From Sphaerobacteraceae bacterium (GTDB lineage Bacteria > Chloroflexota > Chloroflexia > Thermomicrobiales > Thermomicrobiaceae), in the NCBI GenBank assembly GCA_007695115.1, contig REEK01000174.1, positions 1-51,668 of the forward strand: a stretch of 51,668 nucleotides of DNA, written 5' to 3'. The first letter of the stretch is position 1, and every line of letters starts with the position of its first letter. Below, in pieces: positions 5,655-51,426 of this stretch. The position numbers and the translations under genes are program-made. The notes beneath the pieces were generated by a model. That model saw only the letters and a program-made list of their open reading frames with translations, was not told the origin of the DNA and did no database searches.

Positions 5655-5728
5655 GCCCCCATAGTCTAGCGGCCTAGGACGCCACCCTTTCAAGGTGGAG
5701 ACCGCGGGTTCGAATCCCGCTGGGGGTA
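5655..5728 (+). tRNA. tRNA-Glu (anticodon TTC)
   Basis: A full cloverleaf can be folded. The acceptor arm GCCCCCA pairs with TGGGGGT with one G-U pair at the end. The anticodon loop is CTTTCAA within CACC...GGTG, and the T-arm is CGGGTTCGAATCCCG. Anticodon TTC reads GAA/GAG. The discriminator is A, followed by genomic CC but no full CCA. An intrinsic terminator follows at 5765. Confidence 0.96.
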
Positions 5729-5764
5729 CCGTTTCTTTTCGCGATGAGATACTGAATGGCGAGG

Positions 5765-37180: not shown

Positions 37181-39637
37181 CTAGGATCGCAACGTACCGG
37201 AGACCTGCTGCTTCAACTGCTTCTCGACACGCTTCCGCAGTTTGTCCAGATCTTTGTCTCTCATCGCGCGATCCGGCGCGGCCAGCGTCACCCGGAACGC
37301 GAGACTCTTGTTGCCCTCGCCGACCGATTCCCCTCGATAGACGTCGAAGAGCCGCACCGAGGTCGCCAGCGGTTGCGTGGCATCTTCCAGCACCTTCTGG
37401 ACGTCGCCTGACGGGGTTGCCTCTTCAACGACGATGGCAAAGTCCTGCTGGACTGGCTGGAAGCGGGAAACCGGACGATAGGCGAATCGCTCCAGGCCGA
37501 GTTCCATCAGCAGCGGGATGTCGATTTCGGCGATCGATACGCGGGTGCTCCGGTCGATCTCGAATCGCTCAACAACCAGCGGGTGAACCTCTCCGGCGAC
37601 GCCGATGACCTGGTTCTTCACCACGATCTCTGCCGCCCGGCCGGGATGCAGTGACGGATGAGATGCCTGCCGGATGTCGACGTTGCTGGCACCAATCTCA
37701 GCGAACAGGTGTGAGAGCGCTCCAGACAGATCGAAGAAGTTCGCTTCCCGCGGTGATTCGTAGAGATCGGCGGAACTGTATTTTCCGGCGATGGCCAGAC
37801 AGAGCGTCCGGCGCTCGTTCGGGAGTTCGTCGATCCCTTCCGGCAGGTAGACCCGTCCTGTCTCGAAGACAGACACCAGTTCGTTGTACTTGAGGTTCTC
37901 GCTGACATTGCGAAGAATCGCTGGCATCAGCGTCGGCCGCATCTGCTGCCACTCGCTGCGCAGCGGATTCAATGCCTTCACGAACGGAATTGCCGGTTTC
38001 TCGGCCAGACCGACGCGTGTGGGTATCGCCTCTTCGTCCGGGTTGAGCAGCGCGAGCTCGTTGTCGTCGAGCATCGGGTAAGTGATCACCTCGTTCATTC
38101 CGGCGGCAGTGAGACTGTCCTGAACGCCGCGAACAAACTCGAGCACGGGATCGATGGTGACCGGTGCGGTCTTCCCGACCGGAAGCGTCTCCGGGAGCGA
38201 TTCATAGCCGATGATCCGGGCGACTTCTTCGACGACGTCGGCCTTCAGGTTGATGTCGTTCCGGTAGGTCGGAACCTGTACCCGAATCGCTGGTGCCCCG
38301 TTTTCGTCTACGATCTCCGGGGCAAGATCCAGACGCTGCAGGACGCCCAGTACCACGTCATCAGGGTAATCGACACCGAGCAGCCGTTTGATCTCAGTTC
38401 GGGGCATGGTCACGGATTTCTGATCGCGTGGAGCCGGGTACTGGTCAGCGATCTCCGTGATCCTAGCTTCGGGACAGAGTTCAAGAATCAGAGCGGTTGC
38501 TCGCTGGGCGGCCGTCATCGCGAGGTTCGGATCGAGCCCTCGCTCGAATCGCGCGGATGCTTCAGTCCTGAGTCGCTGCGAGCGTGCTGTCTGCCGGATA
38601 CCGACCATGTTGAACGACGCTGATTCAAGCAGCAAGGTGGTTGTGTCATCCGAGATCTCTGAATCGACACCGCCCATAACTCCGGCGATCGCCACCGGTC
38701 GTTCTGCGTCAGCGATGACCAGATCTTCCGAGGTCAGCGATCGCTCGATATGATCCAGTGTCTCCATCGTTTCACCTTCGTTGGCGCGGCGGACGATGAT
38801 ACGACCCTCGGAGAGATCGTTCCGGTCGAAAGCGTGAAGCGGTTGGCCCCATTCCAGCATGACATAATTCGTGATGTCGACGATGTTGTTGATCGGCCGG
38901 ACTCCCGCCGCATTGAGCCGTCGTTGCATCCAGGTTGGTGATGGCTCAACGTTGACGTTCTCGATGACGACCCCGACATAGCGGAAGCAGAGATCCGGTG
39001 CGTCAATCTGCACGAGGTCTGGCTTCTCGGTGCCGGCGGAGAGGTCGGCGAGTGCTGGAAAGGTCACCGGCTGATCGGCGAGTGCGCCGAGCTCCCGGGC
39101 GATGCCGATCATGGAAAACGCGTGAACCAGATTCGGTGTGATCTCGAACTCGATCACGTCATCGCCCAGATAGTCCCGGAGTGGTGTGCCAACTGGTGCA
39201 TCGGGGTCGAGCACCATGATTCCTTCGTGCTCGCTAGAGATCCCCAGTTCTTTCTCGGAGCAGACCATACCTTCGGAGCGCACCCCGCGGATCTTATTGG
39301 CCTTCAGCGTCATCATCTTCAGTTCTTCGGAGTAGGGATCGATCAGCCGGGCACCGAGGAGCGCCAGCGCGACGCGCTGCCCGGCCGCAATGTTGGGGGC
39401 GCCGGTAACCACGGTCTGTTCGTCGTCGCCAGCCCGAACGGTGGCCAGAACCAGACGATCCGCATCCGGGTGCTGTTCGACGCGCTCGACCGACCCAACG
39501 AAGACTTTCTCCCAGTCGATCCCGATCTGCTCGATGCCTTCGGCTTCCAGCCCCGCCATCGTCAGTCGCTGCGCGATCTCGGCGGAATCCATGCCAGACG
39601 CAACGAGGTCGTTCAGCCAGCTCACAGGTACTTTCAT
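37181..39637 (-). CDS. pheT: Phenylalanyl-tRNA synthetase beta subunit
   Basis: PheT is the large subunit of the alpha2-beta2 enzyme that charges tRNA-Phe. The 818-residue protein has the tRNA-binding EMAP-like OB domain (about 39-150), the B3/B4 editing domain (about 205-390, with RFERGLDPNLAMTAAQRA), B5 (about 405-475), the catalytic-like core, and the FDX-ACB anticodon domain at the C-terminus (ending RVTLAAPDRAMRDKDLDKLRKRVEKQLKQQ). Length is typical. It follows pheS by 56 nt and shares its T-box control. Confidence 0.97.
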   Translation of the reverse strand: MKVPVSWLNDLVASGMDSAEIAQRLTMAGLEAEGIEQIGIDWEKVFVGSVERVEQHPDADRLVLATVRAGDDEQTVVTGAPNIAAGQRVALALLGARLIDPYSEELKMMTLKANKIRGVRSEGMVCSEKELGISSEHEGIMVLDPDAPVGTPLRDYLGDDVIEFEITPNLVHAFSMIGIARELGALADQPVTFPALADLSAGTEKPDLVQIDAPDLCFRYVGVVIENVNVEPSPTWMQRRLNAAGVRPINNIVDITNYVMLEWGQPLHAFDRNDLSEGRIIVRRANEGETMETLDHIERSLTSEDLVIADAERPVAIAGVMGGVDSEISDDTTTLLLESASFNMVGIRQTARSQRLRTEASARFERGLDPNLAMTAAQRATALILELCPEARITEIADQYPAPRDQKSVTMPRTEIKRLLGVDYPDDVVLGVLQRLDLAPEIVDENGAPAIRVQVPTYRNDINLKADVVEEVARIIGYESLPETLPVGKTAPVTIDPVLEFVRGVQDSLTAAGMNEVITYPMLDDNELALLNPDEEAIPTRVGLAEKPAIPFVKALNPLRSEWQQMRPTLMPAILRNVSENLKYNELVSVFETGRVYLPEGIDELPNERRTLCLAIAGKYSSADLYESPREANFFDLSGALSHLFAEIGASNVDIRQASHPSLHPGRAAEIVVKNQVIGVAGEVHPLVVERFEIDRSTRVSIAEIDIPLLMELGLERFAYRPVSRFQPVQQDFAIVVEEATPSGDVQKVLEDATQPLATSVRLFDVYRGESVGEGNKSLAFRVTLAAPDRAMRDKDLDKLRKRVEKQLKQQVSGTLRS

Positions 39638-39693: not shown

Positions 39694-40737
39694 TCAGGCG
39701 AGTACACGATTGAACTGGCTGAGGAAACGGAGATCGCCCTGGTAAAAGTGTCGGATGTCTTCGATGCCGTACTTCAACATGACGATGCGCTCGATTCCCA
39801 TGCCGAAGGCCCAGCCGGTGTAGACATCGGGATCGTAGCCGACATGCCGCAGCACGTTGGGGTGAACCATTCCTGCACCGAGCAGTTCGATCCAGCCGGT
39901 CTTGCTGCATACCCGGCAACCGGATCCTTCGCAGAACATGCAGTCGATAGCGAAATCGACGCCTGGCTCAACGAAGGGGAAGTAGTCACAGCGGAACCGG
40001 ACCTTGCGTTCCTGCCCGAAGATCTGACGGGCGAATTCGGCTAGCGTGCCTTTGAGGTCAGTCATGGTGATGTTGGTATCGACGGCCAGCCCCTCGATCT
40101 GGTGAAAGTGCCACTCGTGTGTCGCATCAAGTGCCTCGTATCGATAGCACCGACCTGGAACGACAACGCGAACCGGTGGTTCCACCTGCTCCATTGTCCG
40201 GATCTGCATTGGGGATGTGTGCGGTCGGAGCACGATCTCGCGCTGATCTGACTCGATGAAGATGGTGTCCCAGACATCACGAGCCGGGTGATCCTGTGGA
40301 ATGTTCAGAGCGTCGAAGGCGTAGTAGGCGTCTTCTACCTCGGGCCCCTCGACCGTCTGGAAACCCATCAGTCCGAATACGCGAGTGATGTCCCTGATCA
40401 TCTTCGTGACCGGGTGGAGATTTCCTGCCTGAGGAAGGCGACCAGGCAGCGTGACATCGATCGCCTCGTCGTTCAGTCGTTTGCGAAGTGATGCCGCGAG
40501 AATGTTGTCCTGACGAGCGTCGAACGCCTCTTGCAGTTCGTTTCGCAATGCGTTGACTGCCTGACCGAACGCCGGACGCTCCTCTGCCGGGCGCTGACTG
40601 ATGCCCTTCATTGCACTGGTCACTTCACCCTGGCGTCCCAGGTAGCTCCGGTACCAGGTGGCAAGGTCGTCTTCGGTGCTAATGCTCTCCAGTTTGTCGG
40701 TCGCCTCACGCTTCAGGCGTTCCAGTTCATCACTCAT
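39694..40737 (-). CDS. pheS: Phenylalanyl-tRNA synthetase alpha subunit
   Basis: PheS carries the catalytic site. The 347-residue protein has an N-terminal coiled coil (ELERLKREATDKLESI) and motif-1 region HPVTKMIRDITRVFGLMGFQ. Motif 2 is GRCYRYEALDATHEWHFHQIEGLAVD, and the Cys cluster CMFCEGSGCRVCSKTGWIELLGAGMVHPNVL leads to motif 3 (AFGMGIERIVML). The ATG at 40737 is the natural start. Extending the frame upstream would run into the T-box leader and is rejected. Confidence 0.97.
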   Translation of the reverse strand: MSDELERLKREATDKLESISTEDDLATWYRSYLGRQGEVTSAMKGISQRPAEERPAFGQAVNALRNELQEAFDARQDNILAASLRKRLNDEAIDVTLPGRLPQAGNLHPVTKMIRDITRVFGLMGFQTVEGPEVEDAYYAFDALNIPQDHPARDVWDTIFIESDQREIVLRPHTSPMQIRTMEQVEPPVRVVVPGRCYRYEALDATHEWHFHQIEGLAVDTNITMTDLKGTLAEFARQIFGQERKVRFRCDYFPFVEPGVDFAIDCMFCEGSGCRVCSKTGWIELLGAGMVHPNVLRHVGYDPDVYTGWAFGMGIERIVMLKYGIEDIRHFYQGDLRFLSQFNRVLA

Positions 40738-40779: not shown

Positions 40780-41056
40780 AGACAAAACCCCGCCACAGGG
40801 GCGAGGTGTTTCCACGCGGTACCACCCTGATTGATCGCCGGTGGCGATCATCTCAGTGCCAGGATTCGAGCTGTATAGCCCGGTTCTGGCGGCTCCGATA
40901 AAGGGGAGCGAACCATGTGCGACTACTGGATCGAAATCGATCGTTCGCCGTCAAGCTCGGGAGTGAATTCTCCGGATCGTCGTTCGAGCGGGTTCTCAGT
41001 CTGTGACGCGCTCTCCCTGTTGCGGACGATTCCCGGGTACTGCTCTCCGTCATCGC
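40780..41056 (-). ncRNA. T-box riboswitch specific for tRNA-Phe, leader of pheST
   Basis: The minus strand holds a full T-box. Stem I begins near 41055 (GATGACGGAGAGCAGTA), and CCGG-GA-ATCGTC pairs with GACGATCCGG. The conserved GGGAGAGC and CTGAGAA elements follow. The specifier loop reads GAATTCACTCCCGAGC, with Phe codon TTC at 40967-40965. The hallmark antiterminator sequence AGGGTGGTACCGCG is at 40828-40815. It is followed by a terminator, CCTCGCC/GGCGGGG with TTTTGT, ending near 40782. Uncharged tRNA-Phe would pair with the specifier and with TGGTA..., favouring antitermination and pheST expression. The order and spacing match established T-box leaders. Confidence 0.94.
40782..40806 (-). 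terminator. T-box attenuator terminator before pheS
   Basis: CCTCGCC and GGCGGGG form a 7-bp stem with loop CCTGT, followed by TTTTGT. Its 5' arm (CGCCCCT) is also the partner of AGGGTGG in the antiterminator, so the two structures exclude each other. Confidence 0.88.
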
Positions 41057-41083
41057 TGCTGCAGATCTTCAATTTCCGCAGGC

Positions 41084-41113
41084 AGTATAGCGAATCGATC
41101 GAAGCGGCGGCAA
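41084..41113 (-). promoter_or_regulatory. Promoter for the pheST T-box leader
   Basis: On the minus strand TTGCCG (41113-41108) and TATACT (41089-41084) are 18 nt apart. Transcription would start about 20 nt before Stem I of the T-box. Confidence 0.65.
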
Positions 41114-41117
41114 TTGA

Positions 41118-42506
<1,389 letters not shown>

Positions 42507-48289: not shown

Positions 48290-48365
48290 GCCGGCGTAGC
48301 TCAATTGGCAGAGCAGCTGTTTTGTAAACAGCAGGTTGCGGGTTCGAGTCCCACCGTCGGCTCCA
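48290..48365 (+). tRNA. tRNA-Thr (anticodon TGT), CCA encoded
   Basis: Acceptor arm GCCGGCG pairs with CGTCGGC (one G-T). The anticodon stem-loop is CTGTT-TTGTAAA-CAG with anticodon TGT, and TCCA ends the gene. The T-stem GCGGG/CCCAC contains one C-A mismatch, unusual but not fatal. A strong terminator follows at 48396. Confidence 0.93.
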
Positions 48366-51341: not shown

Positions 51342-51426
51342 GGGGAGTTACCCGAGCGGCCAAAGGGGCCTGGCTGTAAACCAGGTGCGTAATGCTTCGG
51401 GGGTTCGAATCCCTCACTCCCCACCA
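51342..51426 (+). tRNA. tRNA-Tyr (anticodon GTA), class II, CCA encoded
   Basis: Acceptor arm GGGGAGT pairs with ACTCCCC. The anticodon loop CTGTAAA gives GTA. A long variable arm (GTGCGTAATGCTTC) is typical for tRNA-Tyr, and ACCA ends the gene. It lies just ahead of tuf, a common bacterial arrangement. Confidence 0.95.

Follow-up and report, generated by a model that had tools for sequence, protein, structure and literature searches.

The window (the whole analyzed stretch of 51,668 nt) carries pheS and pheT on the minus strand and eno on the plus strand, pointing away from them (Table 1). The products of pheS, pheT and eno matched NCBIfam equivalogs above their cut-offs, and the closest pheS matches of the window are Thermomicrobiaceae (Chloroflexota) assemblies. 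Upstream of pheS lies a complete Phe T-box leader RNA, which extends from Stem I to the T-run of a terminator at 40784..41060 (−). The initial annotation had described a Phe-specific T-box here, and every element that it named on the minus strand was found in its place when the sequence was read. The position of the leader ahead of pheS and pheT bears out the predicted control of pheST.

Table 1. Features of the pheST leader, its flanking genes and the tRNA genes of the window.
Feature	Position	Strand	Basis or remark
pheT, phenylalanine–tRNA ligase beta subunit	37181..39637	−	NCBIfam TIGR00472, 726.9 bits (cut-off 402.65)
pheS, phenylalanine–tRNA ligase alpha subunit	39694..40737	−	NCBIfam TIGR00468, 326.8 bits (cut-off 237.45)
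Intrinsic terminator, CCTCGCC-CCTGT-GGCGGGG-TTTT	40784..40806	−	terminator scan and sequence reading
Antiterminator, CAGGG-[TGGTACC]-GCG ... CGC-CCCTG	40796..40829	−	RF00230 alignment; helices 11, 12
T-box bulge, TGGTACC	40824-40818	−	sequence reading
Stem III, TGATCGCC / GGCGATCA	40832..40850	−	covariation; helices 9, 10
Stem IIA/B H-type pseudoknot, TGG with CC(A/T), GCTCC with GGAGC	40892..40915	−	helices 7, 8
Stem II with GAA / AGTA loop-E-like internal loop	40916..40952	−	two-sided changes in 10/10 pairs; helices 5, 6
Specifier codon TTC (Phe)	40965..40967	−	invariant in 34/34 aligned leaders; complements anticodon GAA of tRNA-Phe
Stem I	40955..41056	−	sequence reading and RF00230 alignment; conserved in the 34-leader alignment
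Stem I AG bulge CAGGGAG and distal loop ACTGAGAA		 	aligned to model CAGAGA and GGUGAAA
Stem I loop-E, AGTA	41041-41038	−	sequence reading and RF00230 alignment
Promoter-like site of pheST, TTGCCG, 18 nt, TATACT	41084..41113 (−10 at 41089-41084)	−	
eno −10-like TATAAT	41147..41152	+	outside the T-box transcript
eno, phosphopyruvate hydratase	41217..42506	+	NCBIfam TIGR01060, 661.7 bits, above cut-off
tRNA-Glu(TTC)	5655-5730	+	
tRNA-Thr(TGT)	48290-48365	+	
tRNA-Tyr(GTA)	51342-51426	+	

In an Rfam covariance search, the leader was aligned to the T-box model RF00230 over model positions 1-219 (window 41062-40794, minus strand) with 75.2 bits. The E value was 1.7e-16 in a search of 601 bases against all families and 2.5e-16 in the covariance search of the whole 3.68-Mb genome. 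The covariance check suggested in the initial annotation thus gave a strong full-length match, which nevertheless falls short of the curated gathering cut-off of 93 bits. Because of this cut-off the element is missed by a default Rfam scan; at the gathering threshold, no T-box and only three tRNAs were reported in the window. We attribute the low score to the high G+C content of the element. The shortfall could be taken as a sign of a degenerate, non-functional T-box, a reading that we consider exceedingly unlikely, since half of the eight T-boxes of the genome likewise score under the cut-off (72-81 bits in the whole-genome search), and since the covariation of the pheS leaders, together with their invariant specifier, bulge and antiterminator, indicates purifying selection. 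The well-supported Phe T-box from the Thermomicrobiaceae relatives is a useful annotation, as the curated Rfam threshold hides the element.

The evidence for covariation comes from an alignment of 34 pheS leaders across the order, in which the mean column identity is 55%. Two-sided changes were present in 45 of the 58 base pairs, against 31.2 ± 2.1 in shuffles, and 76.7% of the cells paired, against 68.2 ± 0.6; none of the 500 shuffles matched the observed value in any of five measures, with the reservation that this control ignores relatedness. In the control that preserves relatedness, in which the partners were slid by 1-3 columns, pairing fell to 42-52%. Compensatory changes were found in Stems I, II and III and in the IIA/B pseudoknot (helices 5-10 cover II, IIA/B and III), and in other genera TGG/CCA of the pseudoknot is swapped for CCC/GGG. 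The pairing counts are lower in distal Stem I (helices 3 and 4, only 41-56% paired) because this part is poorly aligned by MAFFT. RNAalifold, applied to the MAFFT alignment, failed to recover the pseudoknot and joined columns 185-187 with 343-345 in one spurious long-range helix; for this reason, the structure drawn from the sequence was used for the counts. Minimum-energy folding of the single strand, another check put forward earlier, did not reproduce Stem I as drawn.

Comparison of the related leaders upheld the earlier expectation that the TTC specifier and the AGGGTGG element are conserved, and with it the Phe specificity, as TTC is the codon found in all 34 aligned leaders. Read from the window sequence alone, the specifier could also be placed in another frame, as AAT (Asn) or TCA (Ser), in which case a different tRNA would be sensed. 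There is virtually no chance that this is so: the flanks of the codon vary among the relatives (GAAGTTCG, GAAGTTCC, GATTTCT), TTC alone is invariant, and the regulated gene is pheS. The tRNA-Phe of the genome has the anticodon GAA, and its gene ends in ACCA; it fits both TTC and the TGGT (UGGU) of the bulge. The anatomy of the leader, its conservation and this fit to the tRNA are all directly observed. Within distal Stem I, GGGAGAGC holds the AG bulge (consensus CAGAGA), and CTGAGAA is the distal loop (consensus GGUGAAA). Both are predicted to be the elements of the pheS leader that dock the tRNA elbow.

The competing terminator with a T-run that had been noted at the 3′ end is indeed present, as an 8-pair hairpin (40806-40788) followed by TTTT (40787-40784) on the minus strand, and its 5′ strand, CCTCGCC, is common to the terminator and the antiterminator. 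T-boxes outside Firmicutes are sometimes translational, as was reported for actinobacterial ileS (PMC1262725), and the pheS leader might accordingly act by sequestering a Shine-Dalgarno site. We find this extremely unlikely, as the G+C-rich hairpin runs directly into TTTT and is conserved in most relatives, whereas the pheS start (40737) and the preceding GGAG lie outside the hairpin, about 50 nt downstream of it. According to our analysis, the leader is almost certainly a standard class-I (transcriptional) T-box riboswitch with Phe specificity.

From the behavior of the family we infer that this leader would bind tRNA, respond to its charging and terminate transcription. The pheST transcript would start about 25 nt upstream of Stem I, the TTC specifier in Stem I would read the GAA anticodon of tRNA-Phe, and the module of AG bulge and distal loop would hold the tRNA elbow. 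The ACCA end of an uncharged tRNA-Phe would then pair with UGGU of the T-box bulge, and this pairing would lead to the antiterminator (CAGGG/CCCTG and GCG/CGC) and to transcription of pheST. In the presence of charged tRNA-Phe, CCTCGCC would instead pair with GGCGGGG, and transcription would end some 50 nt short of pheS, at TTTT. By analogy with the family, pheST should be switched on when tRNA-Phe is uncharged.

The comparison of relatives reveals a pheST T-box that is widespread in an order of Chloroflexota and absent from some genera. The 15-mer CAGGGTGGTACCGCG occurred 79-155 nt before pheS in 35 loci (up to 60 relatives), mostly with eno divergent upstream; in one of the loci, L173, it differs by one base. 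At L173 (genome G040) the pheS T-box carries UGGC (TGGC) opposite a tRNA-Phe with discriminator A, a mismatch that may be an assembly error. BLAST with tRNA-Phe matched only near relatives. The bulge, which otherwise hardly varies, deviates in family f2 (L118, L119, L120), where TGGTATC or TGGTAAC takes the place of TGGTACC; these T-boxes read TGGTATCGCG or TGGTAACGCG and were missed by the motif search, and the covariance match at the same position rests on taking G912 as the same genome as G021.

The motif search revealed no T-box at pheS in three genera of the same family (g3, g4 and g6), and the covariance search found none near pheS for members of g3 and g6, genomes being matched by coordinates. 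In g3 and g4, the place of the T-box is taken by a short reading frame that contains a PALPV stretch and by a terminator-like hairpin, which together could represent a leader-peptide attenuator; no NCBIfam model matched the short frame. Upstream of pheS in L105, L107, L108, L109 and L114 this frame reads ...HHVHFSPPALPV... or ...FHHHRWPALPV... and is followed by the terminator-like hairpin. Loss of the eno neighborhood was considered as a cause of the loss of the T-box and rejected, as several genera without the T-box keep the divergent eno.

The pheST leader has, as previously claimed, its own promoter-like site before Stem I, with the −10 box TATACT about 25 nt ahead of the stem; in most relatives TATACT (or TATAAT, TATAGT, TACACT) is found 22-30 nt before Stem I. 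The back-to-back arrangement with eno was also confirmed and is conserved among relatives, with an eno gap of about 210 to 1400 nt. The divergent promoter region, put at 60 nt in the initial annotation, is real: the −10 boxes TATACT (minus) and TATAAT (plus) are 57 nt apart, and in many relatives an AGTATA or ATTATA box opposes the pheS −10 close by. That amino-acid control and glycolysis are thereby placed under joint regulation is not borne out, since a T-box exerts its effect on the transcript that carries it, once initiation has taken place, and eno is encoded outside this transcript, on the other strand. Being located downstream of the pheST promoter only, the T-box has no action on eno; as it acts in cis, on pheST only, glycolysis is not controlled by it. 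The retention of divergent eno and pheS across the order, with opposed −10 boxes often near each other, would be compatible with a deliberate regulatory unit coupling glycolysis to Phe supply. We judge such coupling very unlikely, given that the T-box lies entirely on the pheST side, that the gap to eno varies so widely, and that the divergent pair also occurs in genera without the T-box, which makes the pairing independent of it. Only the promoter region is common to eno and pheST.

In the Phe T-box leaders of Bacillota pheST, a TTC specifier in Stem I is followed by Stems II, IIA/B and III and by an antiterminator that competes with an intrinsic terminator. The window leader shares all of these, including the AGGGTGGTACCGCG antiterminator and pheST downstream, and differs in being G+C-rich, in the longer linker between IIA/B and Stem III and in the divergent eno. 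Its occurrence outside Firmicutes, which the initial annotation had stressed, holds true for this Chloroflexota genome (Thermomicrobiaceae) and is no surprise, as T-boxes of Chloroflexota have been known since 2008. In Dehalococcoides, they were described at ileS, trpE and a trpB-like gene (PMC2494555). These belong to the same phylum and the same family of riboswitches and have the same types of target, a synthetase and amino-acid biosynthesis; their specificities are Ile and Trp, whereas that of the window T-box is Phe, and its host genome has eight T-boxes. The pheS T-box is thus an ordinary addition to a known family.

The eight T-boxes of the genome, with the specifiers taken from the cmscan alignment and the open frames, precede leuS (CTC), leuA (CTC), a lysX-like ATP-grasp gene (AAG), trpE (TGG), metX (ATG), thrS (ACC), pheST (TTC) and ileS (ATC). 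Gene names were assigned by inspection or from similarity to leuS, except for eno, pheS, pheT and the neighboring phosphoglycerate mutase. According to the TBDB, over 85% of the T-boxes for amino acids with two codons, including Phe, rely on a single specifier, with a preference for 3′-C over 3′-U (PMC7778990). Outside the window, at L005 1339-1752 (contig C22 of the same genome), a SAM-I riboswitch is directly followed by the Met T-box (ATG) before metX, which matches exactly the SAM-I/T-box tandem arrangement already described (PMC9481103). The thrS T-box (L006 1501-1891, contig C98) has the specifier ACC and the bulge TGGA and is preceded on the same strand, at a distance of about 70 nt, by a tRNA-Val(GAC) gene.

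The leuS T-box of this genome, also outside the window, is far more unusual than that of pheS. At L001 (G000:C180:39951-40256, minus strand; specifier CTC), the Stem III loop houses an entire tRNA-Ala(GGC) gene on the same strand. No second GGC tRNA-Ala was found among the typed tRNAs of the genome, and the few long untyped ones (81-90 nt) match Leu, Ser or Tyr tRNAs in length. With a search pattern consisting of a tRNA T-loop and a T-box 20-50 nt downstream, matches were obtained in 21 of 158 genomes of the class; the reversed control pattern gave none. All 21 loci (L228-L248) contain tRNA-Ala(GGC) with leuS downstream. Across the phylum, 39 of 400 genomes matched, three of which had already been counted, leaving 36 further genomes by pattern; 12 more phylum loci (L282-L293) were read, and each of them was leuS with tRNA-Ala(GGC). 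The pattern also matched in 31 of the 398 genomes of a Firmicutes sample, and the ten loci read there comprised eight cases of leuS with tRNA-Ala(GGC), one truncated leuS case and one non-leuS locus without a tRNA. Composite loci, which also include L294-L297 and L299-L303, thus occur in different families of Chloroflexota and in the Firmicutes sample.

Matching changes preserve Stem III around tRNA-Ala: in the best of three registers tried, 150 of the 198 flank positions pair, compared with 119.6 ± 4.6 (maximum 139 in 2000) when the flanks were dealt among the sequences. Taken together, these observations make it reasonably probable that the leuS leader is an ancient dual-use, composite RNA with tRNA-Ala(GGC) as its Stem III loop. 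Since the tRNA gene forms this loop, each leuS transcript, terminated or read through, would also bear a non-cognate tRNA precursor. If this is true, tRNA processing could sever the sensing domain of the leuS T-box from its decision domain. The composite raises the questions of how a single transcript can function as a riboswitch while also being the precursor of a tRNA, and whether the processing of this tRNA contributes to the control of leuS. A literature search, which did not cover two key reviews on T-box distribution, revealed no earlier description of a tRNA inside a T-box; this is no proof of novelty. In g4, g6 and part of g3 (L258-L260, L262-L265, L267 and L269), tRNA-Ala(GGC) is encoded ahead of the leuS T-box, on its strand, and not inside it; the tRNA and the leuS T-box have therefore stayed neighbors in these genera.
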